In this document: piece after piece, positions 12,761 through 32,365 of the stretch | Position numbering within the stretch: position 1 is the first letter of the stretch | Layout: every line of letters begins with the position of its first letter | Assembly: GCA_030596395.1 (NCBI GenBank) | Contig: JAUVKF010000006.1 | Span: forward strand, 1 to 64,000 | Direction of reading: 5' to 3' | Length of the DNA stretch: 64,000 nucleotides | Source of the DNA: Chlorobiota bacterium | GTDB lineage: Bacteria; Bacteroidota; Bacteroidia; Bacteroidales; F082 | The notes under the pieces: model-generated | What the model was told of the DNA's origin: nothing | The model's input: the letters and a program-made list of their open reading frames with translations, nothing else | The model's database searches: none | Program-made: the position numbers and the translations under genes

Positions 12761-14167
12761 ATGCGGATAAAATTGATATTGGCTGCGGATAAAAATGATA
12801 CATTGAGGAAAAAGAATCCCTTCAAGCCGCTATCACTATCTCTTCTGGCCGGTGCAGCCCCCGAGCATAAGTACGACCTTGTTGATATGCTTGACAAGCC
12901 TGACGTGGGTTTTGATGAGGCTGTTGATTTGGTTGGCATTAGTATTCGCAGGTCTTCGGAGGAGGCTGCATTTGAAGTAGCAGATCAATTTAAAAACAAG
13001 GGTGTTAAAGTGATCCTGGGCGGCCCACAGGTTTCAGCCAATCCATTTGAATCATTTAAACATGCCAATGCAGTTGTTATAGGAGAAGGTGAAGAACTCT
13101 GGGTTAAGCTGCTTGATGATATTTCAAATGATGATTTAAAGGATTTTTATGTTTCTGCACCTAAAAAGTTTGAGGCAAGCGGCCATTCACTTTATCAGCT
13201 AAAAAACCTGCCTTCGCTTGAAAATATCCCAAAACCAAACCGCAATTTATTAAGAAAAAAATATGATTTTGAGCTGGTGTTCGCTTCACGCGGATGTGCC
13301 ATCAACTGCGATTTTTGCTCGGTTACCCGATTGTTTGGAAGCAAATACCGCTTAAGGCCAGTTGATGATGTTGTGGGTGAAATTGCAGACTTTACGGGAT
13401 ATTACTATTTGATAGATGATACCGTTTTCGGAAGGCCAAACACCTACGATTATTATCTTGAGCTTTATGATAAAATCTCGAAACTAAAAAAAATCAATTA
13501 CTGGACGGGCCAGGCCAACCTGGATGCAGCATCTAATGAAAAAGGTCGTGAGGTGATCATGAAAACGGTTAAAGCAGGGTTTCTGTACGCTGCCATTGGC
13601 ATGGAGTCGATCAATAAGGAAGTTCTTCAGAAAAGCGGCAGTTATTCAAAGATGGGCATTGGAAAAGCGACTGATATAGTTGAAAAAATGAAAGAGAACA
13701 TCCGGTTTATCCAGCAACAGGGAATTCTTATTTCAGCCTGGTTTGCCATTGGTTATGAAGATGATAACTTGGATACTTATTATACGACACTTCAGTTTTG
13801 CCTCGACATGAATATTCTTCCTGTTTTTACACCGGTTTATGCTTTGCAGGGAACAGATCTTTATGACCGATTGAAGAAGGAAGAAAAACTGCAGGATATT
13901 TCAGTAAATGTGACCAATGTGCCTCATCACAATATCACCAACCGGCAGGTAATTGATGCGCTGGAATTTGTAAACAGAAAAGGGTTCAGCCTGGTCACAA
14001 ACCTGAAAAGAACCTGGTTTTATTTCAATATATTCGCAAAGCAAAAAGGCAATACAATCGGTGATGTCATTCATAAAACAATTTTTACTTTTATTACACA
14101 ACACCGGTTTGGAAAGATCACAAAGCTGGAAACAGAAAAATTAAAAAAGAAAGTACTTGGAAAATGA
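12761..14167 (+). CDS. B12-binding radical SAM enzyme 1
   Basis: A 468-residue protein. Residues 1-125 form a cobalamin-binding Rossmann domain (VKVILGGPQVSANPFE at 82-97 and IGEGEELW at 107-114). The radical SAM domain follows, with the [4Fe-4S] ligands in CAINCDFC (Cys179, Cys183, Cys186). Class B family members methylate unreactive carbons or make C-C bonds and ring contractions by using AdoMet and cobalamin. It is the first gene of a plus-strand run; its stop overlaps the thioesterase start by 4 bp, so the two are translationally coupled. Together with two further paralogues it is the most distinctive part of this cluster. Substrate unknown. Confidence 0.87.
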   Translation: MRIKLILAADKNDTLRKKNPFKPLSLSLLAGAAPEHKYDLVDMLDKPDVGFDEAVDLVGISIRRSSEEAAFEVADQFKNKGVKVILGGPQVSANPFESFKHANAVVIGEGEELWVKLLDDISNDDLKDFYVSAPKKFEASGHSLYQLKNLPSLENIPKPNRNLLRKKYDFELVFASRGCAINCDFCSVTRLFGSKYRLRPVDDVVGEIADFTGYYYLIDDTVFGRPNTYDYYLELYDKISKLKKINYWTGQANLDAASNEKGREVIMKTVKAGFLYAAIGMESINKEVLQKSGSYSKMGIGKATDIVEKMKENIRFIQQQGILISAWFAIGYEDDNLDTYYTTLQFCLDMNILPVFTPVYALQGTDLYDRLKKEEKLQDISVNVTNVPHHNITNRQVIDALEFVNRKGFSLVTNLKRTWFYFNIFAKQKGNTIGDVIHKTIFTFITQHRFGKITKLETEKLKKKVLGK

Positions 14168-14574
14168 GCAGTAATAAATCGGCGAAGTATTATTTTGAGT
14201 TGCAAGCACGCGGAAATGAACTGGACTCGTATGGTCATGTTAATAACGCTGTTTACCTTAATTACAATGAACAGGCTCGTTGGGATTTATTCAATAAACT
14301 CGGACTGCTGGATCAATTTAAGGCCGATGGAAAAAAGATTGTGATTGTTGAGAATCAGATCAAATACATTCGTCAGGTAAAGCTGTTTGATGAAATAATA
14401 GTTGAAACGCAGATGGAAAAATCGGCGCATTTTCTTTTATTCAAACATATCCTTACAAACAAAACGACAGCTAAACTGATAGCAAAAGCAATGGTAAAAA
14501 CATTATTTCTCGACCAAGATGATAAACCCTGTGATATCCCTAAATCGCTTTTAAACACCTTTACCGAAGAATAA
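14164..14574 (+). CDS. Hotdog-fold acyl thioesterase (4HBT/YbgC-like)
   Basis: A 136-residue single hotdog protein. The motif DSYGHVNNAVYLNYNEQAR (residues 21-39) contains the Asp and the GHVNN of the 4-hydroxybenzoyl-CoA thioesterase/YbgC/FadM family. These enzymes hydrolyse acyl-CoA or acyl-ACP thioesters in the cytoplasm. ATGA overlap with the radical SAM gene and TAATG overlap with the crotonase gene show tight coupling. It could release the finished chain or remove stalled intermediates from an ACP. Confidence 0.85.
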   Translation: MSSNKSAKYYFELQARGNELDSYGHVNNAVYLNYNEQARWDLFNKLGLLDQFKADGKKIVIVENQIKYIRQVKLFDEIIVETQMEKSAHFLLFKHILTNKTTAKLIAKAMVKTLFLDQDDKPCDIPKSLLNTFTEE

Positions 14575-15311
14575 TGGATAAGCTGAAAATTATACTGAAA
14601 AGGGAAGGTGATGTAGGATTGCTTGAGATTAATAATCCTCCGGAAAATTACCTTGAAAAGCCTGATTTTATTGAGATTGACAGACTAAAAAACTATCTGG
14701 ATACGGGAATCAAAGCATTAGTCATCAGCGGAACCGGACGAAATTTCAGTGCTGGGGCCAACCTGGAATCTGTCAAAGACCAGATTAAAGAGGTGAATAG
14801 CTTTCAGGATCAGATAGAAAATGGGAACCGCATATTGAATTATTTAGACCAACTTAATATTCCCGTAATCGCTTCAATTTCAGGAGTGTGTTTTGGTGCG
14901 GGTTTAGAGATAGCCCTTGCTTGCGATATCAGGATTTGTGAAAAGAATGCACTGTTTGCTTTTCCGGAAGTGAACCATAATCTTTTTCCCGGACTTGGTG
15001 GTGTGAGAAGGCTTACAGAACTGACCGGTAAACCAACAGCTCTCCAATTGGTTTTGAATGGAGATTTGATAAACGCAGATAAGGCGTTTGAACTAAACAT
15101 AATTGATCAAATAGCTGAAAAGAAACAGGCACTGGAGAACGCTATTACGCTGGCAAAAAAAATAACGAACAACAGACCGTTAAAAGTTATCAATGCAGTG
15201 ATGAAGTCTATCCATAACAGTAAAATATTGGATATTGACGAGATGATCAAGGAAGATGCAAAGTTATTTAGTGATTTGGCCGTTGATACCTTGAGAAGTG
15301 ATGAAAATTAA
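14574..15311 (+). CDS. Enoyl-CoA hydratase/isomerase family protein (crotonase) 1
   Basis: A 245-residue crotonase-fold protein. The oxyanion-hole loop FSAGANLESV and the second loop CFGAGLEIALACD are present. Both Glu residues needed for hydration in crotonase are conserved (GLEIA and FPEVNHNLFPG). It could therefore hydrate or dehydrate an enoyl/3-hydroxyacyl thioester. No FabZ-type dehydratase is present in the cluster, so this pair of crotonases may supply the dehydration step. It is separated from the second crotonase by 6 bp and is roughly a third identical to it by eye, so an old duplication or a heterodimer is possible. Confidence 0.85.
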   Translation: MDKLKIILKREGDVGLLEINNPPENYLEKPDFIEIDRLKNYLDTGIKALVISGTGRNFSAGANLESVKDQIKEVNSFQDQIENGNRILNYLDQLNIPVIASISGVCFGAGLEIALACDIRICEKNALFAFPEVNHNLFPGLGGVRRLTELTGKPTALQLVLNGDLINADKAFELNIIDQIAEKKQALENAITLAKKITNNRPLKVINAVMKSIHNSKILDIDEMIKEDAKLFSDLAVDTLRSDEN

Positions 15312-15317
15312 GATTTG

Positions 15318-15989
15318 ATGGAGGTGCTTGCGAAAAATAAAATTTCATGGGATATCAGTGATAAGATTGGTTACTTAAGTTTTATTGACTCTCCTGAAAA
15401 TCGCATGGATTCGGCATTCTTCGATGAATTGCACGATCTAACCTCCAAAGTGATACCTGGTAGCAAACCATCTGCCATCATTATATCAGGCAGTGGACGT
15501 CATTTTTCGGCAGGAGCCGACCTGGATGACCTTATGCGGATGATCAAAGATGAGCAAAAAGAAGAAGGTTCAGATACCCTACTATCTAATTATCAGGCGT
15601 TTAAATTTTTTCAAGAATTAAATACTCCGGTTATTGCTGCAATTAATGGCGTATGTATTGGGTCGGCCTTGGAATTAGCCATGCATTGTCATTTCAGGTT
15701 ATGCTCGGAGGGTGCTATTTTGGGTTTACCTGAATCAACTTTTGGCTTGATCCCAGGCGTGGGGGGGATACCCCGCTTGATGGAGTTGGCCGGAAAAGCA
15801 AAAACCATTGAATTGGTTTTGAGAGGCAATACTGTTAATACAAATGATGCACTGAAATGGAACATCGTGGATGCAATATATCCAAAGAGAGCATTGATTA
15901 GTAAGGCAGAACAACTGGCGAAACTGGCTTCAATTAACTATAGGAAATACATGAAAACAGATTATTTAAAAATTCTAAAAACCATTTAA
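15318..15989 (+). CDS. Enoyl-CoA hydratase/isomerase family protein (crotonase) 2
   Basis: A 223-residue crotonase-fold protein, slightly short for the family because the C-terminal helices are reduced. It has HFSAGADLDDL, CIGSALELAMHC and LPESTFGLIPGVGG, so both catalytic Glu positions are retained. A TTG directly upstream is also in frame; the ATG at 15318 is preferred. It belongs to the same run as crotonase 1 and the thioesterase. The short C-terminus may mean that it functions only in a complex with its neighbour. Confidence 0.83.
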   Translation: MEVLAKNKISWDISDKIGYLSFIDSPENRMDSAFFDELHDLTSKVIPGSKPSAIIISGSGRHFSAGADLDDLMRMIKDEQKEEGSDTLLSNYQAFKFFQELNTPVIAAINGVCIGSALELAMHCHFRLCSEGAILGLPESTFGLIPGVGGIPRLMELAGKAKTIELVLRGNTVNTNDALKWNIVDAIYPKRALISKAEQLAKLASINYRKYMKTDYLKILKTI

Positions 15990-15993
15990 ACCC

Positions 15994-16074: not shown

Positions 16075-16085
16075 AAGAACTATGT

Positions 16086-17198
16086 ATGAAAATCCAAAAA
16101 ATAAAAATAACGGGTAGCGGCACTTATTTGCCTGGAGAGAGGCGAAGTCTTGGTGAAGTTGATCAGATCTTGGGTGAACTTACTGAAACTCCATCCAAAA
16201 TCCAGAAATGGCTGAAAATGACAAAAGGCCTTATGAGCAAGCTGTTGGATGTAGAATATTATCATTTTGCCATCGATCCGATCACTCGTGAATTTACCGA
16301 TGACAACATCAGCATGTCAGTAAAAGCGGCTGAAAAAGCGATAAAAGCTGCTGGGATAAATGCAGAGGATATTGATTTTATTGCCTATGGAAGCCCGCAT
16401 CAGGATCAAATGCCAACAGCTTCGGTGAGGATACAGGAAAAATTGGGAATTGAGCAATGCGGAGAAGTTTCTATTCATGCCAATTGCACCTCAGCGTATA
16501 AAGCGCTGCTGATTGCGCACGATATGCTCAAAAGTGGCAGATACAAAACAGCACTGGTTGTTGCATCTAATATGTCTTCATCCGAACTAAGGGCTGAATA
16601 TTACAACCAGGCACTCTTAAAAAAAGAAGAAGTTTTATTGCGGTATTTTCTCAGCGATGGGGCAGGAGCTCTTATTTTACAGTCAACCGAAGATAAAAAT
16701 GGTTTATTTGTAGAGGAAACCTATATGGAATCCATCGGCGGAAAAAAACCTGCCGCCATGTTCAACCGGCGCCCTGCATATTGGATGAATCCGAAAGAAG
16801 AATTTGAAAAAGGATTTCACCATCTTGCACAATTATTTAATGATCAACTTCGGATTCATTTCAATGAAGAAGACGGTTCTGTTTTTTACAAAGGATTAAA
16901 ACGGATGATGGAAAAGTATCCATTTGATGTGGATGCGGTGCGTTATTTCCAGGTGAATTTTCCTTCCAAACACATTTCAGAGCTTGTTATGGAAGAATGT
17001 GAGGCATTGGGAATTCCAAAAGAAAAACTGTATGCCAAAATGAGCACCATGGGATACATTGGCCCGCCTATGGCTATCGTCAGTATCGACCGAATGATCA
17101 AGGAAGAACAATTCAAAAGTGGTGATTTGGTTCTTAGTTTTGTAACGGAGGTCAGCAAGTTTATGCAAGCCGGGTTTTTATTAAGATATGAATCATAA
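16086..17198 (+). CDS. KAS III-like (FabH/thiolase superfamily) ketoacyl synthase
   Basis: A 370-residue thiolase-fold protein with a 3-oxoacyl-ACP synthase III layout. The nucleophile Cys134 is in IHANCTSAYKA. By eye, the His of the FabH motif (VPHQAN) aligns with Asn in YFQVNFPSKHI, and the Asn of the GNTSAAS motif falls on Thr/Met in KMSTMGYIGPP. The normal Cys-His-Asn decarboxylation triad therefore seems incomplete. This would fit an acyl transfer or non-decarboxylating condensation rather than standard initiation of fatty-acid synthesis. It sits mid-run between crotonases and the 3-hydroxyacyl-CoA dehydrogenase. Confidence 0.8.
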   Translation: MKIQKIKITGSGTYLPGERRSLGEVDQILGELTETPSKIQKWLKMTKGLMSKLLDVEYYHFAIDPITREFTDDNISMSVKAAEKAIKAAGINAEDIDFIAYGSPHQDQMPTASVRIQEKLGIEQCGEVSIHANCTSAYKALLIAHDMLKSGRYKTALVVASNMSSSELRAEYYNQALLKKEEVLLRYFLSDGAGALILQSTEDKNGLFVEETYMESIGGKKPAAMFNRRPAYWMNPKEEFEKGFHHLAQLFNDQLRIHFNEEDGSVFYKGLKRMMEKYPFDVDAVRYFQVNFPSKHISELVMEECEALGIPKEKLYAKMSTMGYIGPPMAIVSIDRMIKEEQFKSGDLVLSFVTEVSKFMQAGFLLRYES

Positions 17199-17309: not shown

Positions 17310-18383
17310 ATGACTAAAAAAACACCACCGGAATACAACATAGGCATCATCGGCTGCGGAAAAATGGGCCAAGATCTCTTTGAATTTATGACAGGGTTTC
17401 CTTTTCGGGTGATTTTGATTTGTAAAACAGAAACATCAATTGAACAAATTGAAAAGGCTTTCATCAAAAAGCAAAAACGTGCTTTAAAATATAATTTGAT
17501 CGATAAGGAAACTTTTGATTTTCGACAAGAAAATACAGTTATTACCACCGATCTACAATATCTGAAAACTTGCGATCTGGTTATTGAATCGATTACAGAA
17601 GACATCCAAAAGAAAATGAAATTGTTTAAACAACTTGAACAAATTCTGACACCGCAATGCGTGCTTGCCAGCAATACTTCATCGATTACTCCCGATCATT
17701 TATTTTCAGACCTTCAATTTAAGGGAAGATGCGTTGGCCTTCATTTCTTTTACCCTGTTGCCATGAAAGATATTGTTGAGGTAAACATGGCTAAAAACAC
17801 GAGTGAAGAGATGGTTTCTTTGGTTAAAGAGTTCCTCAGGAAGATTGGAAAGTTTCATATCGTTCTCTCTGAAAGAGATCACTTTATCGTCAATCGAATT
17901 TTTCTGAAAATACAGGCCGGATGTTGCCAATTAATACATAATGAAACTTTGAGTGCAAATGAAATTGATGCTCTGGTCAAAGCACATTTATTCCCGGTTG
18001 GTGTATTTGAATTTTTTGATCATGTGGGAAATGATGTGATGTTGCAATCGGTGAAGAATTATGTTCATTTTGAAGCTGACCCCGAATTTTACCAAGCTTT
18101 GATCGAAGCCCTTCAACAAAAAGTTAATCAAGGCAAATTGGGAATAAAATCCAATTCAGGTTTTTATGATTATCCAGCGGTCATAGAACAAAAACCTCAG
18201 GAAATTTTGGATTCGACAGAACTGGTAAAAAAAATCACTACCTGGTACCTGGATGGCGTTTATGAAGTATTAAACATGGGGATTTGCTCAAAAGAAGAAT
18301 TGGAACATATCGTAAAAGAGTATATAATAGTTGAAAAAAGCCCGTTTGATCTGGCAAAAGAGATAGGATACTCTCCAAAATAA
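17310..18383 (+). CDS. 3-hydroxyacyl-CoA dehydrogenase-like protein
   Basis: A 357-residue protein of the HAD family. The NAD-binding motif GIIGCGKMG is at residues 12-20. SNTSSI at 121-126, the catalytic His145 in GLHFFYP and Glu157 in DIVEV are present; the usual Asn of HFFNP is Tyr here. The C-terminal helical dimerisation domain is complete, with two 3HCDH-type segments. In place of a FabG-type ketoreductase, this enzyme could reduce 3-ketoacyl or oxidise 3-hydroxyacyl thioesters in the pathway. It precedes the FabF-like gene by 34 bp in the same plus-strand run. Confidence 0.85.
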   Translation: MTKKTPPEYNIGIIGCGKMGQDLFEFMTGFPFRVILICKTETSIEQIEKAFIKKQKRALKYNLIDKETFDFRQENTVITTDLQYLKTCDLVIESITEDIQKKMKLFKQLEQILTPQCVLASNTSSITPDHLFSDLQFKGRCVGLHFFYPVAMKDIVEVNMAKNTSEEMVSLVKEFLRKIGKFHIVLSERDHFIVNRIFLKIQAGCCQLIHNETLSANEIDALVKAHLFPVGVFEFFDHVGNDVMLQSVKNYVHFEADPEFYQALIEALQQKVNQGKLGIKSNSGFYDYPAVIEQKPQEILDSTELVKKITTWYLDGVYEVLNMGICSKEELEHIVKEYIIVEKSPFDLAKEIGYSPK

Positions 18384-18417
18384 TTCCTTTCTTTGTCGTT
18401 GAAATTCATATGTAAGA

Positions 18418-19638
18418 ATGACGAAGGACAGCAAAGTATTAATAACCGGAATGAATATCATTTCCTCCCTTGGAATGAGTCTAAAAGAGAATTGGGAGAA
18501 TATGGTAAACGGAAAAAGTGGTGTCAAACGTATTACATTATTCGATCCATCAGGATTAGAAACACAAATTGCTGCACAGGTACCTGATTCATTTGAAGAA
18601 TATGCAGCCGGAAAAGTGAAGAAAAGACAATCAGGTCAAATGACCCGGGTAACCCGTATGTGTTTTGTTTGTGCAAAGGATACTATCGAGTACGAGGCGA
18701 TTGATCTTGAAGGCTTCGATAAAAATCGGGTTGCAGTCATTCTTGGTGTGGTTAATACAGGAAATTCAAGCGTTGAGGATACGCCGGTATCAAGGAATTC
18801 CATTTTGAAGGGGATGAATAACGCCATGTCAGCATGGATTTCGATGCAATATGGTTTAACCGGACCAAGTTACACGGTTGCCACAGCCTGTTCTTCATCG
18901 GCTTATGCGATAGGATTGGGTTACGACCTGATCAAAAGTGGCAGGGCTGATATGGTGATTACTGGTGGGGCTGATTCGATAATAAATCCGGAGGAAATAG
19001 CAGGCTTCAACCAGTTGTTTGCTTTATCAACCGTAAATGATGAACCCGGAAAAGCCAGCAAACCTTTTTCTGAAGACCGGGATGGCTTTGTGATTGGCGA
19101 AGGTGCCGGAATAATGTTACTCGAATCGGAGGAATCGGCGAAAAAAAGAAAAGCGACCATTTATGGTGAAGTTGCCGGATATGCATTAACCACTGAAGGT
19201 TACAATATTATGGCACCAAAAAAAGATGGCGTAGGCATGGCTGAGACCATGGAAAAAGCGATTGAAGATTCAGGGATAAAAAAATCGGAAGTGGATTACA
19301 TCAGCGCGCACGGAACCAGTACAATGCTGAATGATCTCTACGAAACCATGGCCATCAAAAAGGTTTTCGGTGAGCGGGCTTCCTCCATTGCAGTCTCCTC
19401 ACAAAAATCAATGATTGGCCATACGGTTGGAGCAGCCGGTGTGATTGAAGGGATTGTTTCGGCTCTTAGTATAAAAAACAACACTCTCACACCAACTATT
19501 AACCTTGAGAAACCAGATCCTGACCTTGGTTTGGATTATGTGCCAAACGTCAGTAGAAAAGCAGAAATTAAAATCGCATTATCTAATTCCTTTGCCTTTG
19601 GCGGGCATAATGCTACGTTGGTTTTTAGACAGTATTAG
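18418..19638 (+). CDS. FabF-type beta-ketoacyl-ACP synthase
   Basis: A 406-residue KAS II with the full Cys-His-His triad: Cys158 in TACSSSAYA, His in AHGTST, and His in GHTVGAAG. Length and N-terminus (VLITGMNIISSLG) are normal. It should perform decarboxylative chain extension on ACP-bound substrates. It is the last gene of the plus-strand core run. A second intact ketosynthase and a degenerate partner are encoded about 5 kb further on the opposite strand, so this one may work with a different ACP or at a different stage. Confidence 0.9.
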   Translation: MTKDSKVLITGMNIISSLGMSLKENWENMVNGKSGVKRITLFDPSGLETQIAAQVPDSFEEYAAGKVKKRQSGQMTRVTRMCFVCAKDTIEYEAIDLEGFDKNRVAVILGVVNTGNSSVEDTPVSRNSILKGMNNAMSAWISMQYGLTGPSYTVATACSSSAYAIGLGYDLIKSGRADMVITGGADSIINPEEIAGFNQLFALSTVNDEPGKASKPFSEDRDGFVIGEGAGIMLLESEESAKKRKATIYGEVAGYALTTEGYNIMAPKKDGVGMAETMEKAIEDSGIKKSEVDYISAHGTSTMLNDLYETMAIKKVFGERASSIAVSSQKSMIGHTVGAAGVIEGIVSALSIKNNTLTPTINLEKPDPDLGLDYVPNVSRKAEIKIALSNSFAFGGHNATLVFRQY

Positions 19639-22343: not shown

Positions 22344-22344
22344 A

Positions 22345-23102: not shown

Positions 23103-24203
23103 TCAGATTTTAACTCCTTCAATAATATTAAAAGGCGAAACCGTTTTTACGACTCTGGTTAATTTGAAGCCTGCAAATTCAAAAATGTTCCTGAACTCCC
23201 TGGCCGTTCTTTCTTTGCCATTCTCCGTTACAATAAGCATTTGTAGGTCAAACAATTTGCCAAAACCAGCTTTATTGTCTTCACTGATAACGGTTTCAAT
23301 AACCAGAATTTTTCCTTTTCCTTTCATTTCATTGCTGATTGATTGGAGCAGGCCAATGCAGGCCTCATCATCAAAAGCATGCAAAATATTTTTCAACAAG
23401 TAAGCATTTGCCTTGGGGAGTGTGGTTTCGAAAAAATCACCAGGAACAATTTTAACACGGTCCTCAACACCAAAACGCTGCACCATATTGCCGGCTGTTT
23501 TTACCACATGTGAAAGATCGAATAAAAGGCCTTTTACTGATTGGTTTTTTTGTAGAATGGTACAGAGCAACATGCCCTCACCACCACCAATATCAGCCAG
23601 TGTCCCAATTCCATTGAATGAGTATGCCGAAACAATTGCTGCACTTGAGAGACGCGATGTTTCGCTCATGGCTTTATTGTATAGCTCGTTTTTTTCAGGT
23701 GTATTTTGTAAATGTGTAAAAATATCGGTACCTAACAGTTTTTGAGCAGCATTGGTTCCTGATGTTACACTGTACTTCAATTGGTTGACAACATCCCAAT
23801 TGGTTTCGTTCAACTGGTGGATGATCATGTTTTTCAGGTTGCCCGGTTGTTCCCTGAGTGCATTTGAAAATTTATTGTTTTTAAATACTTTCGGACGGAT
23901 TTCCTCAAAAATACCCTCACTTGCCAATGCACGCATCAGTCGGTATAAGGCAGAAGTATCTGTTTTCGATGCGCCTGCGATTTCTTCAACTGACTTTTCA
24001 TTCTTAGCAACAATTTCTGAAAGGTTTAATTCGCAGGCAACACTAATGGCTTTTGCAATCCAGAAACCCTGAGCTTTCTCAAACACTGCCATACTTGGTG
24101 GCACAAAACGATAATATGTTTTTTTAAGGAAGTTTCGAAAACTACTGATGATCGAAAAAACCCAGACCGGTGGCATATTGTTTACTTTCTGAATATCATT
24201 CAT
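23103..24203 (-). CDS. SAM-dependent O-methyltransferase (Methyltransf_2-like)
   Basis: A 366-residue methyltransferase. An N-terminal winged-helix dimerisation domain (about 35-110) precedes the Rossmann domain. AdoMet motif I reads ADIGGGEGM; later segments read LLFDLSHVV, VPGDFFE and LLKNILHAFDDE, the last matching the region of the catalytic His in plant-type and bacterial O-methyltransferases. It may methylate a hydroxyl or phenol on the product. It is part of the five-gene minus-strand run with the ABC exporter and the KS/CLF pair, 52 bp from the CLF-like gene. Confidence 0.85.
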   Translation of the reverse strand: MNDIQKVNNMPPVWVFSIISSFRNFLKKTYYRFVPPSMAVFEKAQGFWIAKAISVACELNLSEIVAKNEKSVEEIAGASKTDTSALYRLMRALASEGIFEEIRPKVFKNNKFSNALREQPGNLKNMIIHQLNETNWDVVNQLKYSVTSGTNAAQKLLGTDIFTHLQNTPEKNELYNKAMSETSRLSSAAIVSAYSFNGIGTLADIGGGEGMLLCTILQKNQSVKGLLFDLSHVVKTAGNMVQRFGVEDRVKIVPGDFFETTLPKANAYLLKNILHAFDDEACIGLLQSISNEMKGKGKILVIETVISEDNKAGFGKLFDLQMLIVTENGKERTAREFRNIFEFAGFKLTRVVKTVSPFNIIEGVKI

Positions 24204-24255: not shown

Positions 24256-25323
24256 TTATTCCTTTGGATCAGTTAAAAGTATCAAACTATGATTCATATC
24301 CCTGTAATGATTGTAAATCAGGATATTTCTTACTGGTTTAGTTACATTGTTTTTTAATTGTATAATTTCAGGAACCTCTTGAAGATGTAAAATTTTAGTT
24401 GCCAGCCAAAGGGCAAAAGCACTTGAGGTATGATATTCACCACAAAGGTGTTTGTAATAAGCATGGTTGTTCTCTGAGAAAATTGATTTCATCAGATCAT
24501 AATAAATCCAATCAAAATCTGAATCTCCATTTATCCCAAGAATAACAAGGTCAAGATCTTTGAGTGTAAGGTTCTCGTGATTCAGAAAATTTTCAATCTG
24601 TTTCTCAATTTCAATCCGTCCTTTCGGATTTGAAAAAGTATGAACTGACCTTATTCCTGCATAAGTTTTTTCTGTAGGATGGTTCTCAAGGAAAAAGAAT
24701 GCACTTCCTTCTCCCGCAATCGTACCTTTTGATTTTTCAGTAAACAATGACAAATTATTAGTCTCAGGATTTTTGAAATGGCCAATACGGTCAAAAGTCC
24801 TGAATTGAATTTCTTCAATTTCATCAACCCCACCCACCAAAACGTTTTTGTATTTCCCTTCACTCAAAAGCATCATAGCATCTATTAGTGCACTTTCAAA
24901 CGAAAATGCCCGATGCGAATAGGTCATGTTGTAATTTTTGCAACCCGTTTGAATGGCTATTTGAGAGGCAATTGAACCGTGAGCAGATTGAATAAATGGC
25001 GACGGGGGTACAAACTTCTCATCGTTTTCAATAACAGAATTTAGAAAGACATGGGTGTTTTTAAAACAGCCTTTTCCTGTGCCAACGCATATAGTATCAG
25101 GTGTTTGAATGCCGGCATCATCAAGACAGGATTTTGCCCCGGCCCAACCCAGCTTTAAAACACGGCCTATCCTTCTCAATGCATTTGGATGAAAAAAGTG
25201 AGAGTAATCAGGCTCAATGCACTGGAGCATATTGGTTTTGTATTGCCTTATATCAGTAAGGAATTCCTTATTGTTAAAAGCAGGTTGAGGCGATATGTTG
25301 GCTAAACCATTGATGTAAATCAT
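24256..25323 (-). CDS. Chain-length-factor-like degenerate ketosynthase
   Basis: A 355-residue protein with a ketosynthase fold but no active site. TACSS of the neighbouring KS aligns with RAFSF (Phe140 for Cys), AHGTGS aligns with INGDSD, and GHTLGSSG aligns with GEYHTSSA, so Cys and both His are gone. The VLVGGVDEI and GEGSAFFFLE segments confirm the fold. Its ATG overlaps the stop of the upstream KS gene by 4 bp. A catalytic KS followed by such a partner is the arrangement of type II polyketide and aryl-polyene KS-CLF heterodimers, in which the CLF shapes the tunnel and sets chain length. Confidence 0.82.
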   Translation of the reverse strand: MIYINGLANISPQPAFNNKEFLTDIRQYKTNMLQCIEPDYSHFFHPNALRRIGRVLKLGWAGAKSCLDDAGIQTPDTICVGTGKGCFKNTHVFLNSVIENDEKFVPPSPFIQSAHGSIASQIAIQTGCKNYNMTYSHRAFSFESALIDAMMLLSEGKYKNVLVGGVDEIEEIQFRTFDRIGHFKNPETNNLSLFTEKSKGTIAGEGSAFFFLENHPTEKTYAGIRSVHTFSNPKGRIEIEKQIENFLNHENLTLKDLDLVILGINGDSDFDWIYYDLMKSIFSENNHAYYKHLCGEYHTSSAFALWLATKILHLQEVPEIIQLKNNVTKPVRNILIYNHYRDMNHSLILLTDPKE

Positions 25324-26525
25324 GACTCAGTTTTTAAAAATAGGAGAGAGGTATTGTTGCCTCCAAACCCAAATGAATTTGACAACACATTGTTAATTTT
25401 CATCGATCTGACCAGATCTTTCTCAGGTGTTACATCAACTTCATCCATACTGTTTTTGAAGTTTAAATTTGGAAATACCAGGTTTTTCTGTAAAGATAGG
25501 ATTGAAAAAACAGCCTCAAGTGCTCCCGAACTTCCAAGTGTATGCCCTGTAAATGGTTTTGTTGAACTGAATTTTGGAATATTTTTGCCAAATACCTTTT
25601 CAATTCCTAATGCTTCCGACAGATCATTATTTTCTGATCCAGTTCCATGGGCGTTGATATAATCGATTTTTTTTGGATTCAGACCACTTCCTTCAATGGC
25701 ATTCATCATAGCCATTGCAGCACCCTTGCCATCTGGTGAAAGTGCGGTGAGGTGGTAGGCGTCATTTGAATTACCATACCCACTTAATTCGCAAATGATA
25801 TTTTTTTCCTCAGCCACTTTGTCCGATTCGATCATCAGAAATGCAGCGCCTTCACCAAGGTTAAGCCCTCTCCTGTTTTTGTCGAATGGCTTACTGATCT
25901 GTGGATCAACAATCATCAAAGCATGAAATCCGTTTAGCATCACCTTGGATAAGGCATCAGTTCCGCCAACCAGAACACGGTCGAGCATATTGTGTTTGAC
26001 CATCCGGGCACCGGTCATGATGGCATTAGCTGCTGATGAACAGGCCGTATTAATTGTAGTTTGATAACCGAATATTCCTAATTCTTTTGCGATAACTTCA
26101 GTACTATATCCCCAGTCCTGAGATTCGATGTATTCGTTCCTGCTATCGTTGTTCAAAAAGTCTTGGAGGTAAAGCTCAATATTCGTCATGGATTCGGCAG
26201 TAGTACCTGAGATAATTCCTGTTCTCACATTCGAGTCATTGAAATCTGTATTTTTCGTTGCTTCTCTCGCTGCAATAATCCCAAGCAAAGCTGCTCTGCT
26301 GATTCCTTTTGCATCATTAATTCCTGACAAAGGGATGAGTTCCTTGTTTGAGAGCGGTACTTCTCCGGCAATCAGTTCGTTGCTCAACCTGGTCTTCAAA
26401 TGTCTGATGGCCCCAATTCTTGATCTCCCTTCAATTAGCCGCTCAAGGTTTTGATGAATACCAATTCCCAGTGAGGAAATGATACCCATTCCAGTTACAA
26501 AAACCTTATTTTTTTTAGTATTCAT
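25320..26525 (-). CDS. FabF-type ketosynthase (KS alpha partner)
   Basis: A 401-residue KAS II-like enzyme. The triad is intact: Cys162 in NTACSSAANAI, His in NAHGTGSENND, and His in GHTLGSSGALEA. It is translationally coupled to the CLF-like gene and should form the iterative condensing heterodimer. It differs clearly from the other FabF-like protein of the cluster. The radical SAM gene immediately upstream ends 4 bp from its start, so it is in the same operon. Confidence 0.9.
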   Translation of the reverse strand: MNTKKNKVFVTGMGIISSLGIGIHQNLERLIEGRSRIGAIRHLKTRLSNELIAGEVPLSNKELIPLSGINDAKGISRAALLGIIAAREATKNTDFNDSNVRTGIISGTTAESMTNIELYLQDFLNNDSRNEYIESQDWGYSTEVIAKELGIFGYQTTINTACSSAANAIMTGARMVKHNMLDRVLVGGTDALSKVMLNGFHALMIVDPQISKPFDKNRRGLNLGEGAAFLMIESDKVAEEKNIICELSGYGNSNDAYHLTALSPDGKGAAMAMMNAIEGSGLNPKKIDYINAHGTGSENNDLSEALGIEKVFGKNIPKFSSTKPFTGHTLGSSGALEAVFSILSLQKNLVFPNLNFKNSMDEVDVTPEKDLVRSMKINNVLSNSFGFGGNNTSLLFLKTES

Positions 26526-26529
26526 TTAA

Positions 26530-27867
26530 TTAAATAACATCCGTTCCTTTTTTGATCAACCACAATTTGCCCATGTTTTCATAGAATTGTTCAAGTGGTA
26601 GTTTGGTTTCCATAACACTGTTAAAAAAATTATACCTGGAATAATCGTGGTCAATGATCCTGTCTTTTACTTCGTTATAATATACGGTGCCTGGCATCGG
26701 TGTTAATATGGTATACCCGGCATAGGTTACTTTGTGGGAATTTGCATATTCTGAAAGCGCATTAAAATCGTCTTCATCATAATCAGGAGGAACCACATAA
26801 TTTCCTCTCAGCAAAATATCATTGTCATGAAAGACATCAATGGCCTGCTTGATCATTCTGGCTTCCGATTTTTTATTGTAATGCTTCAACTCTTTATCGC
26901 GGAAGGACTCAAAACCTGTGATCACAACCTTCAGCCCTGCTTTAGCCAGTTTTTTAATCAACTCAGGATGCTCAACCGCTGTATCAGCCCTGATGTCCAT
27001 GATGTACATTTTATGGATACCTTCTTCTACGATCCGGTCAAAAAGCCGGTTGATGAACTTGATATTCACAATAGTATTGGCATCCGCAAAGCGGACGATT
27101 TTATAATCAATCAGTTTTAATTCTTCGATAATACTTTCAACATTGCGCTGTAAATATTTCCTGTCGTATTCTTTCCATATGGAACAAAACGTACAACTAT
27201 ACGGGCAACCCAATGAAGTAAACAAGTAGGTGGCTGGTTCGGGGTTATTCCCAACAGCATAAGTGGATCGCCATCGTTCCAGGTGGCTCCTGTCGGGCAT
27301 CAGGAAATGCTTATCGGCAGAATCAAAATAAATTGGAGAAGCCCCGGTTGGTACTAGCTGTTTACCTTTTTTGACAAGAATGCCTTTCACATTTTCCAAC
27401 GGTTTTTTTAATTCCAGGGCATTGATCACATCACGGAAGGTAAACGAGGCCTGTCCGGGACATACGACATCAACAGCTGAATCATTAAAATCCTGAGGGC
27501 AAAGTGTTGTATGCAATCCGCCTGCAACGGTGGTGATGTTCGGATTAAATTTTTTAACAGTTCGTAAAATGTCGAGTGAAAAATACAATTCTGATGTGAT
27601 GGCAGTTACACCAACAACATCCGGCTTTGTTTTTTCCAATAAGTCCATCACCATTTCGCCAGGTTCGGGCGCATCATGAACAAGGTCATATTCACCCTTC
27701 ATGTCAAATACCGTAACATCATGGTTTTTAACGGCTTCGGCTATAGTTAACAATCCCAGGGGTGGTCCGATCAGCTTTTTATGGATAAAGTACTTTGCTT
27801 CTGCCGGGGCAGATTCAAGGATCATGTTCTCAGGCGAACGTGGCGGATTGATTAAAAGTATCTTCAT
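26530..27867 (-). CDS. B12-binding radical SAM enzyme 2
   Basis: A 445-residue protein starting at the ATG at 27867 (MKILLINPPRS); twelve further in-frame codons upstream add no domain. The cobalamin-binding domain spans about residues 1-155 (VVGVTAITS, VAGGLHTTLCPQDF), and the radical SAM Cys triad lies in CPYSCTFC (Cys221, Cys225, Cys228). The C-terminal region has a YTILTPMPGTVYY segment typical of BchE/HpnJ-like class B enzymes. It heads the minus-strand operon with KS, CLF, methyltransferase and ABC exporter, so its reaction is likely to be close to chain assembly. Confidence 0.87.
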   Translation of the reverse strand: MKILLINPPRSPENMILESAPAEAKYFIHKKLIGPPLGLLTIAEAVKNHDVTVFDMKGEYDLVHDAPEPGEMVMDLLEKTKPDVVGVTAITSELYFSLDILRTVKKFNPNITTVAGGLHTTLCPQDFNDSAVDVVCPGQASFTFRDVINALELKKPLENVKGILVKKGKQLVPTGASPIYFDSADKHFLMPDRSHLERWRSTYAVGNNPEPATYLFTSLGCPYSCTFCSIWKEYDRKYLQRNVESIIEELKLIDYKIVRFADANTIVNIKFINRLFDRIVEEGIHKMYIMDIRADTAVEHPELIKKLAKAGLKVVITGFESFRDKELKHYNKKSEARMIKQAIDVFHDNDILLRGNYVVPPDYDEDDFNALSEYANSHKVTYAGYTILTPMPGTVYYNEVKDRIIDHDYSRYNFFNSVMETKLPLEQFYENMGKLWLIKKGTDVI

Positions 27868-27943
27868 CGTTATAGCTGCAAACAAAAATGAGGAAAATAA
27901 CAACGCAATCGAATTTGAAATGCAACTGTTCGCTAAAAGTTAA

Positions 27944-27951: not shown

Positions 27952-27972
27952 GAAGCAATAATTTAATTGATC

Positions 27973-28443
27973 ATGAAAGAAAAGGAAGCCCATATTGATT
28001 TTGATCTTCATCCGTTGGTTTTGTATGTTGAGAAAGAGGATGGATCATACGGACGCATCGAATCAGCTTCTTTTTTATCAAGTAATTATCTTGACGATTA
28101 TCTTGAGAAAATAAAAAAATGGGACAGGGAATTAAAGGATAAGCTTGAAAAAGGGGATATCAGTCCTGTTTATTATTATATGATCATGCTGGAATTTGGT
28201 GAAAGTGATCTTGCTTCCCGCGTTGGCATTTCAAAACGCAAACTAAGGAAACATTGTAAAATGGCGGCATTTGAAAAAATTAGCCTGAAATTGTTGAAAC
28301 GCTATGCAGATGTTTTTGACGTTCCGGTGAGTAATATGTTAAACTTCATTGCCATCAACGAAAAAGACCAGAAAAGGCTTAAGATCAGTACAAGGAAATC
28401 AAATAATCCATACATCACAATTTCCAAAATTGAAATACAATAA
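27973..28443 (+). CDS. Helix-turn-helix protein, possible cluster regulator
   Basis: A 156-residue protein. After a charged N-terminal half, residues about 78-125 form an XRE-like helix-turn-helix (LASRVGISKRKLRKHCK followed by ISLKLLKRYADVFDVPVSNML). The TTG two codons upstream is also in frame, but the ATG at 27973 is the normal choice. It is transcribed divergently from the radical SAM/KS operon with only 105 bp between starts and precedes the BtrH-like gene by 37 bp. I infer that it regulates the cluster, but a structural role cannot be excluded. Confidence 0.65.
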   Translation: MKEKEAHIDFDLHPLVLYVEKEDGSYGRIESASFLSSNYLDDYLEKIKKWDRELKDKLEKGDISPVYYYMIMLEFGESDLASRVGISKRKLRKHCKMAAFEKISLKLLKRYADVFDVPVSNMLNFIAINEKDQKRLKISTRKSNNPYITISKIEIQ

Positions 28444-28480
28444 GATTTGTTGAAAGAAATTTGAAGAGACAATTGAAGGA

Positions 28481-29485
28481 ATGAAAGAAATAAAATTTGA
28501 ACATAAAATGGCTGCCCATTGTGAGTCGGGTACAGTTACTGCTTTATTAAACCATGGCGGCCTGGAGATAACAGAACCAATGGTGTTTGGGATAGCCAGC
28601 GGTATTTTTTTCGGTTATTTCGAATCATCCAATTTCTCCTTCCCGATGTTTATTGTCAGGAACAAACCCGGGTCGATGCGCAGAAACATTGCGAAACGGA
28701 TGGGGGTAAAATTTTATAACAAGAGCTTTAAAAAACCGCAACAGGGTATAGACGAACTCGACCGATTATTGGCTGATGGCCATCCGGTAGCCACACAGGT
28801 CGATTTTTATTATATGGAATTCCTGCCCGAATATATACGTGCCCACATCAATGTGCATTTTGTAAACATCGTTGGTAAGAATGAAAAAAATTACCTGGTA
28901 AGCGATGCCTACCACCGTGATAAAGCCGAACTTAGTGTTGAGGTGTTGAACAAAGCCCGTTTTGTAGGCGGTTATATGGCACCAAAGGGGTTTCTATTTT
29001 ATCCATTTCATATTCCTGAAAACATTGATTTCAATAAAGCCATCATCAAGGGCATTAAAAAAGCAGCATTCGACATGACTAAACTCCCTGTACCTTTTGT
29101 CGGGATAAAAGGCATGCGTAAATTTGCTAAAAAGGTAACAGGATGGCCAGAACTGGCACGGGATATCGACCATCTTTCGCATGAGATTATGAAAATAAAT
29201 GTATTGCTCGAAGACCAGGGAACCGGAGGTGCAGGGTTCAGGTTTTTGTATGCAACATTTTTGCAGGAAGCAGCCCAAAAACTAAACGACAGTCAGTTAG
29301 AAGGCATGTCGAAAAGGATGATGGCCATTGGCGACGATTGGCGAAATATTTCTTACTTTGCAGCCAAAATTGGTAAGAACCGCGACCTTGGCAAAGAACG
29401 ACTGAACGAGCTAAGCCAGATGATTTATAACATGGCAGATCAGGAACAGGCGTTCTTCTCGGAACTTTACAAAATGGTTAAATAA
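28481..29485 (+). CDS. BtrH-like acyltransferase (BtrH_N/DUF4872)
   Basis: A 334-residue protein. The N-terminal Cys14 in AHCESGT, HINVHFVNIVG and LVSDAY match the papain-like BtrH N-terminal domain, followed by a helical DUF4872-like C-terminal half. BtrH in butirosin biosynthesis moves an acyl chain from its ACP to an amine. By analogy this enzyme could transfer the completed chain from an ACP to an acceptor such as an amine, sugar or lipid head group. It is followed after 16 bp by an ACP gene, a likely donor. Confidence 0.8.
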   Translation: MKEIKFEHKMAAHCESGTVTALLNHGGLEITEPMVFGIASGIFFGYFESSNFSFPMFIVRNKPGSMRRNIAKRMGVKFYNKSFKKPQQGIDELDRLLADGHPVATQVDFYYMEFLPEYIRAHINVHFVNIVGKNEKNYLVSDAYHRDKAELSVEVLNKARFVGGYMAPKGFLFYPFHIPENIDFNKAIIKGIKKAAFDMTKLPVPFVGIKGMRKFAKKVTGWPELARDIDHLSHEIMKINVLLEDQGTGGAGFRFLYATFLQEAAQKLNDSQLEGMSKRMMAIGDDWRNISYFAAKIGKNRDLGKERLNELSQMIYNMADQEQAFFSELYKMVK

Positions 29486-29501
29486 GAGACAGAACACGAC
29501 T

Positions 29502-29780: not shown

Positions 29781-29847
29781 AACTCTTGGATAGTGTCTGT
29801 CAATAAGCTCAAAAAAATAATTATAAAAATTTCTCCAAGAACATTGT

Positions 29848-29952
29848 TGTCATTTCGAAGTAAGCTTTCCCGCCATATGCGGGATTGCGATGAGAAATCT
29901 CCAGCGAAAGTAGCCTGTTCTCAGGGGATTTCTCCCTCCGGTCGAAATGACA
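29848..29952. repeat. Inverted-repeat intergenic element (TGTCATTTCGA type)
   Basis: The ends TGTCATTTCGA and TCGAAATGACA are perfect inverted repeats. Inside are a second nested pair, AGAAATCTCC and GGGATTTCT, and a CCCGCCATATGCGGG hairpin. It is non-coding and of the REP/MITE type, related in layout to copies at 32973-33240 and 47417-47506. Confidence 0.7.
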
Positions 29953-30004
29953 GTTTTGTTTTTGAGTTCCTCAATTTTCTAAACAGACATTAATCAATTA
30001 CCAG

Positions 30005-31084
30005 ATGAATCACTCATATTTATTAGCGGGTATCTCATCGGGAAAATTATTCAGACTTTTATTCAAAAATGGCTTTTCAATTTATCCTAAATACCTTTTC
30101 CGAATTCTTTTTTTATTGCAGGGATCAATATTTGCATCAATCTTTAACCGGATTGAAAAAATCAGGATGGCAAAAAAGTTGAAAAACTATTCCATTCCTG
30201 ATGACCCAATCTTTATTATAGGGCACTGGAGGACCGGAACAACCTTGCTTCACCAATTGATGGCACTGGATGAAAACCTGGTGACACCCAGCGTGTTTCA
30301 TGTTTCAACACCTGAAAGTTTTTTAATATCAGAAAAGTTTTACCGTCCGGCAATGACGAAAGCAATGAAATCAAAAAGGCCTATGGACAATGTAAAACTC
30401 GGATTTGATGAACCCCAGGAGGAAGAATATGCCTTAATTAAAATGACTGCCGATTCGCCACTTGAAAAACTCATTTTTCCAAAAGGCAAAAAGTATTTTT
30501 TATCGGAATACGCTGATTTTAATCCTGATAATGAAATAAAATGGAAAAGAGCACTTCAGGATTTTTGCTTCAGATTAAGTTTTTCCAAAGGCAAAAGGGT
30601 ATTGCTTAAAAATCCATTTCATTCAATGCGAATACCATTGTTGCTTGAACTTTTCCACAATGCGAAATTCATCCATATTCACCGGCATCCTTATGAAGTT
30701 GTACCTTCAACCATTCATATGTGGAGTGTAGTTGGCAAGGAAAATAAGTTGAAGAGAAAATTTGAAAAGCCAAAAACAGAGGAAGTTGCCATTGTATTCG
30801 ACAGGATGCTGACAAACATCAATGAAAACCTGGCATGTTTGACTGAAAATGCAAAAGTGGAGATGAGTTTTAAAGAACTGGAAAGTGATCCGGTTTCCGC
30901 TTTGCAACATATTTATAACAAGCTGGAATTGAATTATTCGCAGGATTTTGAGGCCAGTGTGAAAGAATGGCTCTCAGAGATGAAATCATACCAGAAAAAC
31001 AAATATGCGCTTTCAGAAACCGAAAAAGAAACGATTAAAAGAATACTCGGAAAGCATTTTATTTACTATAATTACAAGCAATAA
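30005..31084 (+). CDS. Sulfotransferase family protein
   Basis: A 359-residue PAPS-dependent sulfotransferase. The 5'-phosphosulfate loop reads GHWRTGTTLLHQL (residues 73-85) and the 3'-phosphate region reads FIHIHRHPYEVVPS. The hydrophobic N-terminus (about 20-48) may attach it to the membrane. Such enzymes transfer sulfate from PAPS to hydroxyl or amine groups. It is in line with the BtrH/ACP genes and the third radical SAM gene, 15 bp before the latter, so the product may carry a sulfate group. PAPS-supplying genes are not in the window. Confidence 0.87.
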   Translation: MNHSYLLAGISSGKLFRLLFKNGFSIYPKYLFRILFLLQGSIFASIFNRIEKIRMAKKLKNYSIPDDPIFIIGHWRTGTTLLHQLMALDENLVTPSVFHVSTPESFLISEKFYRPAMTKAMKSKRPMDNVKLGFDEPQEEEYALIKMTADSPLEKLIFPKGKKYFLSEYADFNPDNEIKWKRALQDFCFRLSFSKGKRVLLKNPFHSMRIPLLLELFHNAKFIHIHRHPYEVVPSTIHMWSVVGKENKLKRKFEKPKTEEVAIVFDRMLTNINENLACLTENAKVEMSFKELESDPVSALQHIYNKLELNYSQDFEASVKEWLSEMKSYQKNKYALSETEKETIKRILGKHFIYYNYKQ

Positions 31085-31099
31085 AAAGGAAGGATTTTT

Positions 31100-32365
31100 G
31101 TGAAGATTAAATTGATATATCCCAAATGGTCAAAACTGGATGGACAGACAGAATTCAACCTGCCACCACACGGACCACTTGTTTTTGCAGCAGCATTGCC
31201 CGATTATGTGGATGTTGACTTTTGTGATGAAAATGTTCAATCATTCAGTTATGACGATCCTGCAGATTTAGTTTGTATTTCTATGATGCTTACCTCTCAG
31301 ATCAAGCGGGGTTGGGAAATCGCCGGGACATACCGTGAACAAGGGAAACAGGTATTGTTCGGAGGTATTTCCACCATGCTTCATGCTGAAGAAACCATGC
31401 AGCATGCTGATAGCGTTTTTATGGGCGAAGCCGAAGGACATATGGAAGAAGTATTAGACGATTTCTCAAAAGGAAAACTCAAAAAACTCTACAATTTTAT
31501 GAATCAGCAACCGGATACTGAATTGGTTGGCACGGCAAGGCGCGACTTGCTTGAGCGAGAATTGTACTACCACAAAGGCGTTCAAATGGTTGACCTGTTT
31601 CATGCTTCACGTGGGTGTAAATACAATTGTTATCCTTGTGCTGTTTCTTTTCTTGGTGGAAGGCGATTCAGGCCGAGGCCGTTCGACCGCATCGCCGAAG
31701 AGTTGGATACCATCGACAACAACAGGTTGTTTGTAGTCGACAATACACTGGCACAGGACAATGAGTGGACAAAGGAGTTGTTCAGGACGATGATCCCGTT
31801 CAAGAAAAATTGGTGTAGCCATACCATTGCAGATGATCCTGAAGTACTTGATTTGGCAGCACAGGCCGGATCATGGTATGTTTACCAGGCGGTATTTGAT
31901 ACTTCCGATTACATTAAGGAAAGGGTTAAAAAATACCATGATCACGGAATTAGTGTGGAAGGAACCATCCTTTTGGGGATGGACAATCAGACCGAAGATG
32001 ACATCAAACGGCTGCTAGATTTTATAGGAGAGATTAACCTCGATCTTGCAGAGTTTACTGTATTGACGCCTTTCCCAGAAACAAAAGCATATGACGATAT
32101 GTTAAAAGAAGGCCGGATTTTCGATCACGACTGGAACCACTACACAGCCGACACTGTAGTATTCAAACCTAGGCATATGTCGCCCGACCGATTACAGGAA
32201 TTGTATCTCCAGGCATGGGATAGTTTTTATGCTAGCGAAAGTCAGGAGCAGAAAATGTTCAGGATGATGATGAAAGTGGTTGAACGGGAAATGGAAGACG
32301 GTACCTACCGTAAACCCCGAAAAGACCTGATAGAATCCAGTTTTGGAAAGATTGTAGACCGTTAA
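31100..32365 (+). CDS. B12-binding radical SAM enzyme 3
   Basis: A 421-residue protein starting at a GTG with AAGGAAGGA ahead of it. The cobalamin domain is at about residues 1-125 (VLFGGISTMLHAEE and FMGEAEGH), and the radical SAM Cys triad is CKYNCYPC (Cys173, Cys177, Cys180). The C-terminal ...HMSPDRLQELYLQAW...FY pattern is common to class B lipid and hopanoid-modifying members. It is distinct in length and motifs from the other two, which argues for three separate reactions. It ends the plus-strand run. Confidence 0.87.
   Translation: MKIKLIYPKWSKLDGQTEFNLPPHGPLVFAAALPDYVDVDFCDENVQSFSYDDPADLVCISMMLTSQIKRGWEIAGTYREQGKQVLFGGISTMLHAEETMQHADSVFMGEAEGHMEEVLDDFSKGKLKKLYNFMNQQPDTELVGTARRDLLERELYYHKGVQMVDLFHASRGCKYNCYPCAVSFLGGRRFRPRPFDRIAEELDTIDNNRLFVVDNTLAQDNEWTKELFRTMIPFKKNWCSHTIADDPEVLDLAAQAGSWYVYQAVFDTSDYIKERVKKYHDHGISVEGTILLGMDNQTEDDIKRLLDFIGEINLDLAEFTVLTPFPETKAYDDMLKEGRIFDHDWNHYTADTVVFKPRHMSPDRLQELYLQAWDSFYASESQEQKMFRMMMKVVEREMEDGTYRKPRKDLIESSFGKIVDR

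Follow-up and report, generated by a model that had tools for sequence, protein, structure and literature searches.

Three radical SAM genes within one gene cluster

The window, i.e. the whole stretch of DNA analyzed, comprises 64,000 nucleotides of contig JAUVKF010000006.1 from a Chlorobiota bacterium (assembly GCA_030596395.1, family F082 of the Bacteroidales). It contains three genes for radical S-adenosylmethionine (SAM) enzymes, indicated as A, B and C (Table 1), within a cluster which, by its gene content, is assigned to a flexirubin/aryl-polyene-type pathway. The three enzymes belong to separate old lineages, and probably catalyze different reactions. Their coordinates, strands and lengths are those given by an initial annotation, made from the sequence alone. 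For B, an upstream TTG at 27903 would produce a protein of 457 amino acids (aa); alignments of orthologues begin at the ATG at 27867.

The radical SAM domain PF04055 (cut-off 29.5) was recognized in A, B and C with whole-protein scores of 44.0, 62.1 and 32.9 bits, respectively, although in C no single stretch reaches the cut-off alone. The CxxxCxxC motif is intact in all three, as annotated: CAINCDFC in A, CPYSCTFC in B and CKYNCYPC in C. The usual radical SAM motif is CxxxCx(aromatic)C; the residue before the third cysteine is aromatic in A and B and a proline in C, and the form C-x3-C-Y-P-C is found in all 38 aligned sequences of the C family. The N-terminal cobalamin-type domain PF02310, attributed by the initial annotation to all three enzymes, scores above its cut-off of 32.1 in B (57.0) and below it in A (26.2) and C (28.7), and the attribution stands at Pfam level for B only. 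PF02310 matches are nine in the whole genome; if they were randomly scattered, the chance of finding three of them anywhere within 19.6 kb, as with A, B and C, would be about 0.008.

Pairwise local identity is 25% for A and C, 23% for A and B and 22% for B and C. Each gene has different neighbours, and the operon coupling initially described holds: A overlaps by 4 nt the thioesterase gene of a thioesterase/crotonase module, 4 nt lie between B and the subsequent ketosynthase (KS) gene of a KS/chain-length-factor (CLF) pair, and the sulfotransferase gene is separated from C by a gap of 15 nt.

The proteins were also compared with models of characterized families. For HpnR (TIGR04367, cut-off 650 bits), B scored 160.4, A 44.2 and C 35.4; for BchE (TIGR02026, cut-off 481.35), 142.8, 40.6 and 40.9; for HpnJ (TIGR03471, cut-off 577.6), 71.2, 45.1 and 56.7. 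The MgmA model (TIGR04014, cut-off 360) gave 56, 50 and 42 bits for A, B and C, while with the AprD4 model (NF033070, cut-off 500) C scored 34.2 and B 20.7, A having no listed score. With scores so far below every cut-off, membership of A, B or C in any of these five families was rejected. The cut-off of 360 of TIGR04072 (rSAM_ladder_B12) was likewise not reached by A (55.6), C (45.2) or B (24.0), and no protein of the window's genome exceeded it, the best scoring 101.

Phylogeny of the three enzymes

In a tree of 42 rows, A, B and C each form a clade with 100/100 support. B falls in the part of the tree that also contains BchE, HpnJ and a Streptantibioticus protein lacking annotation, while A and C lie opposite, among other families. 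The Streptantibioticus row (L218, S. cattleyicolor, from a record without annotation) is presumably ThnL. Rows omitted from this tree include ArsL, a 681-aa Streptantibioticus row and all those of a further enzyme, rSAM D (see below); HpnR entered the comparison as a profile only, no HpnR sequence being among the tree rows. An earlier quick tree of 73 rows, remaining after 16 near-copies had been removed from 89, contained the same three clades but joined long branches, and the 42-row tree was therefore preferred.

Alternative groupings were evaluated by the approximately unbiased (AU) test. A single clade of A, B and C was rejected (p = 7.6e-5), as were B with C (p = 2.2e-5) and A with B (p = 3.5e-5), while A with C was not rejected (p = 0.36). 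A and C may share one ancestor, in which case their divergence would be ancient. Together with independent presence and absence in other genomes, these tests indicate that A, B and C are not recent duplicates, in agreement with the initial annotation; the single recent clade that would have refuted its view was not recovered.

Distribution and association with neighbouring genes

A, B and C were looked for in two samples, namely 60 other genomes from the same family and order as the window (sample 1) and 15 further genomes, hand-picked for their C-bearing loci (sample 2); genomes and loci are designated below by G and L numbers. Seven genomes of sample 1 contain C (67-93% identity), six of which also have B (75-80%), and two contain A (75% and 71%). 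In sample 2, B was found in 9 genomes and A in 2 (71%, split over two contigs, and 47%). G412 has C but neither A nor B; its C cluster includes an ammonia-lyase (PF00221), a FlxY-like ligase (57%) and an MMPL-type gene. These patterns show that the lineages are gained and lost separately.

C is the widespread member. In a collection of named genomes a relative of it is encoded in 401 of 496 candidate stretches, and the best 80 of the 401, which were kept, show 68-93% identity. Among its cultured carriers are an Odoribacter and Tannerella forsythia. Of the 80, seven come under names outside Bacteroidota as now defined, or under Chlorobiota (Chlorobiota 1, Neomarinimicrobiota 2, Treponema 2, Spirochaetaceae 1, Oscillospiraceae 1); these may be binning errors. 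For A, 395 genomes drawn from the phylum were scanned: leaving aside the window and a 36% paralogue from its genome, the best listed match was 35%. Viral contigs scanned for A gave 5 pattern matches, none of them a relative.

Flanks of 8 kb or more on both sides are available for 34 C loci (full-flank loci), which include the gene for a 123-aa protein in 27 cases, FlxY in 15, DarH in 15, the sulfotransferase in 12, B in 11 and rSAM D in 8; one locus, L197, has none of these marks. B accompanies the sulfotransferase in 11 of the 12 full-flank loci bearing the latter and in none of the other 22; in the twelfth, B sits elsewhere in the genome. At genome level, in sample 2, B is present in 9 of 9 genomes with a sulfotransferase in the full-flank locus, and in 0 of 5 without. 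By its distribution, the sulfotransferase thus goes with B, though it lies beside C. The coupling of C to the sulfotransferase, proposed initially, holds as adjacency; as a functional pair the two were discarded, C being without a sulfotransferase in 22 of the 34 full-flank loci. A possible partner of C is the 123-aa protein, which has no family match in the Pfam scan; in 52 of 73 loci its gene is located downstream of C, at a distance of up to 800 nt.

A is located directly upstream of the 4HBT-ECH-ECH-KSIII genes in G410, G423 and G455. No radical SAM gene occupies this position in G395, G398 and G456, where an orthologue of A is absent altogether (best matches 31%, 33% and 28%); G395 and G398 share the window's own genus. 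A is accordingly an add-on to its module, a pattern which fits gain or loss alike.

Two neighbouring A-like genes (47% and 32% identity to A) were observed in G468 (contig 15, L238). Relatives of A and C, at about 25-34% identity, also occur as tandem arrays of 2-4 radical SAM genes (Table 1); those in L122, L124 and L127 adjoin genes labelled, by eye, ACP-like, KAS-III-like, KR-like, GT2-like and acetyltransferase-like.

Extent and content of the cluster

The cluster extends from about 800 to 49741, beyond the span initially considered (Table 1). It is classified, on sequence grounds, as a flexirubin/aryl-polyene-type type II polyketide pathway, because FlxY and DarH exceed their NCBIfam cut-offs and because the genes keep together in relatives, which also supports the earlier placement of A, B and C within one pathway. 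FlxY, the C45 acyltransferase, a CrtI-like oxidase, the acyltransferase, the acyl carrier protein (ACP) and the thioesterase module are all contiguous in G395 (L108, L120); the thioesterase module adjoins the ABC, FlxJ-like, acyltransferase and ACP2 genes in G398 (L133); and the MMPL and glycosyltransferase 2 (GT2) genes adjoin C in G396 and G398 (L074, L078).

The KAS-III-like enzyme of the A module scored 91.5 against the model of DarB-type resorcinol synthases, below the cut-off of 550; no search for DarB or DarA was made in the remaining genome. The labels of ketoreductase (KR)-like, DH148, FabZ125, EamA and lipase genes (L085/L080), as well as the missing cysteine of the CLF-like protein, were assigned by eye, with no profile. 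The window's genome (G000) has three matches to the aromatic ammonia-lyase family PF00221, none within the window; on contig C96 (L109) an ammonia-lyase stands beside a KR-like and a KS gene.

An AAA_14/DUF4143-type gene (19808-20938) lies inside the cluster and is not found at this place in G410, G423, G395 and G398; it looks like an insert. A second, more classical set, with a DarH-like gene (37%), ABC, 4HBT-like and KS/CLF genes near FlxY, was observed on contig 5 of G410 (L113/L121), so that the ester/export module seems to be present in this genome in two diverged copies.

Table 1. Genes of the cluster (positions in the window) and tandem radical SAM arrays of other loci
Feature	Position	Strand	Evidence and remarks
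FlxY, flexirubin acyl-CoA ligase	1874..3169	-	NF053551 703.4 bits, above cut-off 520
CrtI-like FAD oxidase 1	3177..4709	-	PF01593; crtI_fam 112 bits, below cut-off 238
C45 (AAT) family acyltransferase	4791..6476	-	PF03417; NF040521 above cut-off
CrtI-like FAD oxidase 2	6466..8085	-	PF01593
FabD-like acyltransferase	11419..12324	-	TIGR00128 144 bits, below cut-off 261
Acyl carrier protein, divergent from A	12344..12649	-	ACP models below cut-offs; 81-87% in relatives
Radical SAM A	12761..14167	+	468 aa; lineage-specific; cobalamin-type N-domain below Pfam cut-off
4HBT thioesterase, A module	14164..14574	+	PF13279; synteny
Crotonase (ECH) a, A module	14574..15311	+	PF00378
Crotonase (ECH) b, A module	15315..15989	+	PF00378
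KAS-III-like ketosynthase, A module	16086..17198	+	Best model StlD/DarB family, 116 bits, below cut-off 450
3-Hydroxyacyl-CoA dehydrogenase family, A module	17310..18383	+	PF02737, PF00725
FabF-type ketosynthase, A module	18418..19638	+	PF00109, PF02801
ABC-2 permease and ATPase	21045..23100	-	PF12698, PF00005
SAM methyltransferase (Methyltransf_2)	23103..24203	-	PF00891
Chain-length-factor-like ketosynthase	24256..25323	-	PF00109; by eye without Cys at usual site
Ketosynthase	25320..26525	-	PF00109, PF02801
Radical SAM B	26530..27867	-	445 aa; HpnR/BchE-side cobalamin enzyme; PF02310 and PF04055 above cut-off
Helix-turn-helix regulator-like gene	27967..28443	+	PF13443 19.3 bits, below cut-off 22; conserved
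DarH, BtrH-related acyltransferase	28481..29485	+	NF053550 322.5 bits, above cut-off 300
Sulfotransferase	30005..31084	+	PF13469 102 bits
Radical SAM C	31100..32365	+	421 aa; widespread in Bacteroidales; invariant C-x3-CYPC
123-aa protein, usual downstream neighbour of C	32562..32933	+	Without Pfam match
TonB-receptor-like gene after C	32990..35608	+	PF13715 above cut-off; PF07715 20.6 bits, below 23.9; conserved
MMPL exporter fused to acyltransferase and methyltransferase domains	39846..43697	-	PF03176, PF01553, PF13847
Glycosyltransferase 2 with DUF2062	43901..45124	-	
LolA	45990..46637	-	PF03548
Polysaccharide deacetylase family	46624..47400	-	PF01522
FlxJ-family-like methyltransferase	47518..48639	-	NF053543 517.4 bits, below cut-off 560
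Lipid A acyltransferase family	48600..49496	-	PF03279
Acyl carrier protein 2	49496..49741	-	PF00550
Tandem arrays	L122 10501-14829; L124 7072-11264; L127 6491-10642; L123 153-5890		
Tandem arrays, further	L083 6032-11802; L125 6458-10945; L126 3615-6354		

A changing third enzyme in sister clusters

Seven sister clusters (L147, L148, L158, L186, L195, L200, L206) carry C, B, the sulfotransferase and DarH together with rSAM D, and also contain ammonia-lyase-like and KS or KR-like genes; three radical SAM enzymes per cluster therefore recur, with a changing third member. In L195, an aryl-polyene-type cluster from a Bacteroidetes metagenome-assembled genome, rSAM D (571-1929) is a member of TIGR04072 (422.7, cut-off 360); in the other sister clusters it was assigned by similarity to the L195 protein. 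Given the occurrence of this protein in a flexirubin-type cluster, a TIGR04072 match alone is poor evidence for ladderanes.

The rSAM D gene of an Odoribacter (L212, 3447-4805) reads as two frames of 321 and 122 aa, indicating a broken gene or a sequence error. Five radical SAM genes were also noticed on an IncF-type plasmid of Citrobacter portucalensis (NZ_CP134684; L219, 5241-14159), accompanied by genes for a GH3-family protein, an N-acetyltransferase, a PAP2 phosphatase and a fatty acid desaturase; the two of the five proteins that were scanned matched no NCBIfam family over cut-off.

Predicted folds and use of cobalamin

Fold models were built for C with 38 sequences and for A with 16 mixed sequences. 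The C model (mean predicted local distance difference test score, pLDDT, 75.6; residues 137-190 poorly modelled) has an N-terminal Rossmann-like domain followed by a barrel, and the A model has the same layout, less sure. The two-domain layout is supported by the model for C and plausible for A, and both folds are compatible with a B12-binding type of N-terminal domain.

AprD4, an enzyme not known to need cobalamin, is the solved structure closest to the C model (Z 21.2 over 335 residues, 3.5 A), followed by MgmA (17.7) and then by MiaB and TsrM (about 16), among others; it also matches C by profile (E 1.5e-5) and by phmmer. The matches of A are nearly tied: TsrM 17.7, AprD4 17.2, OxsB 16.4 and MgmA 15.7. 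None of the entries in the VIA-align lists for C and A settles cobalamin use, which seems likely for B and no more than possible for A and C. An Rfam scan of the window gave nothing over threshold, and therefore no cobalamin riboswitch.

Proposed roles and alternative explanations

All together, the data are best explained, with fairly good confidence, by A, B and C each performing its own step in the flexirubin/aryl-polyene-type pathway. Family separation, distribution and gene order are established; different jobs are inferred because relatives keep or lose the three enzymes separately, and three different reactions are the most probable reading. Using 5'-deoxyadenosyl radical chemistry, each enzyme would modify a chain, either carrier-bound or esterified, in a single step. 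C, with its 123-aa neighbour, would act on a part common to Bacteroidales aryl-polyene-type clusters. The step of B would be tied to the sulfotransferase/DarH/KS module; B is probably alkylating, as its highest-scoring model is HpnR (160 bits, well short of the cut-off), and a first guess is C-methylation of an unactivated carbon. A would introduce a further, optional change into the chain made by the thioesterase/crotonase/KS-III module.

Several observations weigh against this picture. The HAL, KR and dehydratase genes of the usual flexirubin kind are not in the window, HAL, KR-like and KS genes being on C96. The fifteenth genome of sample 2 (L209) has a sulfotransferase-like gene (42%) and no B, and the Fisher p-value of the link between B and the sulfotransferase (4e-8) ignores relatedness, and thus overstates a link among loci related by descent. 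Many genomes are incomplete. A and C remain below the Pfam B12-binding cut-off, the model of A is poor (pLDDT 59.5), and A with C as one clade is not rejected by the AU test.

The last point bears on gene dosage, which the initial annotation had opposed to three distinct reactions. Were the enzymes duplicates kept for dosage or overlapping substrates, all doing the same methylation, their common two-domain layout and an old ancestor shared by A and C would be accounted for; this is nevertheless very improbable, in view of a local identity of just 22-25%, of AU tests rejecting every grouping that contains B, of separate gain or loss and of differing neighbours. Dosage was discarded on the AU results, and that part of the initial argument is upheld; distinct reactions, its other part, are probable to the extent stated above. 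A more serious competitor, still clearly less probable than the preferred reading, is that C, possibly together with A, works without cobalamin in the manner of AprD4, removing a hydroxyl or eliminating a group, B being the sole cobalamin enzyme. The fold, profile and phmmer matches of C, the PF02310 scores of A and C and the lack of a riboswitch all agree with it; yet MgmA, TsrM and OxsB also match well, the latter two being listed as cobalamin-dependent or cobalamin-bound, TsrM and AprD4 tie for A, and the AprD4 family model gives C 34.2 bits versus 500.

Ladderane-like chemistry, in which KS/CLF and the CrtI-like oxidases would make a polyunsaturated chain and the radical SAM enzymes would build rings in it (the proposal made for anammox bacteria), is unlikely, though not as much as dosage. 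The gene kinds are similar to those described for anammox, i.e. FabF, non-canonical FabF, ACP, phytoene-desaturase-like and radical SAM, as well as SAM methylase, phenylacetyl-CoA ligase and glycosyltransferase (available parts of PMC4790861 and PMC2649909), and a TIGR04072 enzyme is present in sister cluster L195. Against it, A, B and C fall far short of TIGR04072, FlxY and DarH indicate aryl-polyene esters, and the functions of the ladderane genes themselves are described as unproven (PMC4790861, in part). A plain ladderane cluster was rejected, the TIGR04072 cut-off being reached neither by A, B and C nor elsewhere in the genome.

A broader and rather doubtful proposal is an anaerobic Bacteroidales branch of flexirubin-type pathways, in which radical SAM enzymes carry out oxidative and carbon-skeleton tailoring. 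C and its 123-aa partner would change the core by AprD4-like radical elimination or ring formation; B would be paired with the sulfotransferase, alkylating or cyclizing a chain to which sulfation has given a leaving or head group; and the exchangeable third enzyme (A here, TIGR04072-type in sister clusters) would set the final skeleton. If so, the pathway would yield aryl-polyene lipids that are sulfated, methyl-branched or carbocyclic, a class so far not isolated. As C occurs in cultured bacteria (T. forsythia, an Odoribacter), product and reactions are testable, and the natural pattern of presence and absence already tells which enzyme belongs to which module.

Comparison with known systems

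Among single enzymes, HpnR, the hopanoid C-3 methylase, provides the best-scoring family model for B, and the alignment spans most of the length, but the score is far below the cut-off. MgmA (9ccb), the methyl-coenzyme M reductase glutamine methylase, matches A, B and C in sequence and is the second-best fold for C, but its family cut-off is not reached. AprD4 (6fd2), a radical SAM 1,2-diol dehydratase, is the best solved fold for C, but with 19% identity in the fold alignment, a low family score and other substrates; it is described as acting with a reductase partner (PMC5461906, in part). Cobalamin-type radical SAM enzymes whose chemistry goes beyond methylation are few; a 2026 preprint names BchE, OxsB, HpnJ, PbsB and a proposed ladderane synthase (PMC13142503, in part).

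The anammox ladderane candidate clusters (PMC2649909, PMC4790861, in part) share the mix of FabF paralogues, ACPs, phytoene-desaturase-like, radical SAM, methylase and ligase genes, a likeness based on published descriptions, not on sequences; they differ in that A, B and C lie outside TIGR04072. In the literature searched, from which subscription journals were mostly excluded, the terms "flexirubin" and "radical SAM" did not occur together in any paper. In the flexirubin cluster of Chitinophaga pinensis (FlxA-FlxY plus dialkylresorcinol genes), the accessible text names no radical SAM gene (PMC3992019); for flexirubin itself, feeding revealed a methyl group derived from methionine (PMC3992019). 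Shared with the C. pinensis cluster are the FlxY and DarH equivalogs, the FlxJ-like methyltransferase and several ketosynthases, HAL being here elsewhere in the genome. What is extra here is the sulfotransferase, the CrtI-like oxidases, the crotonase/3-hydroxyacyl dehydrogenase module and two to three radical SAM enzymes, making this a pathway family in which two or three unlike radical SAM members stand together.

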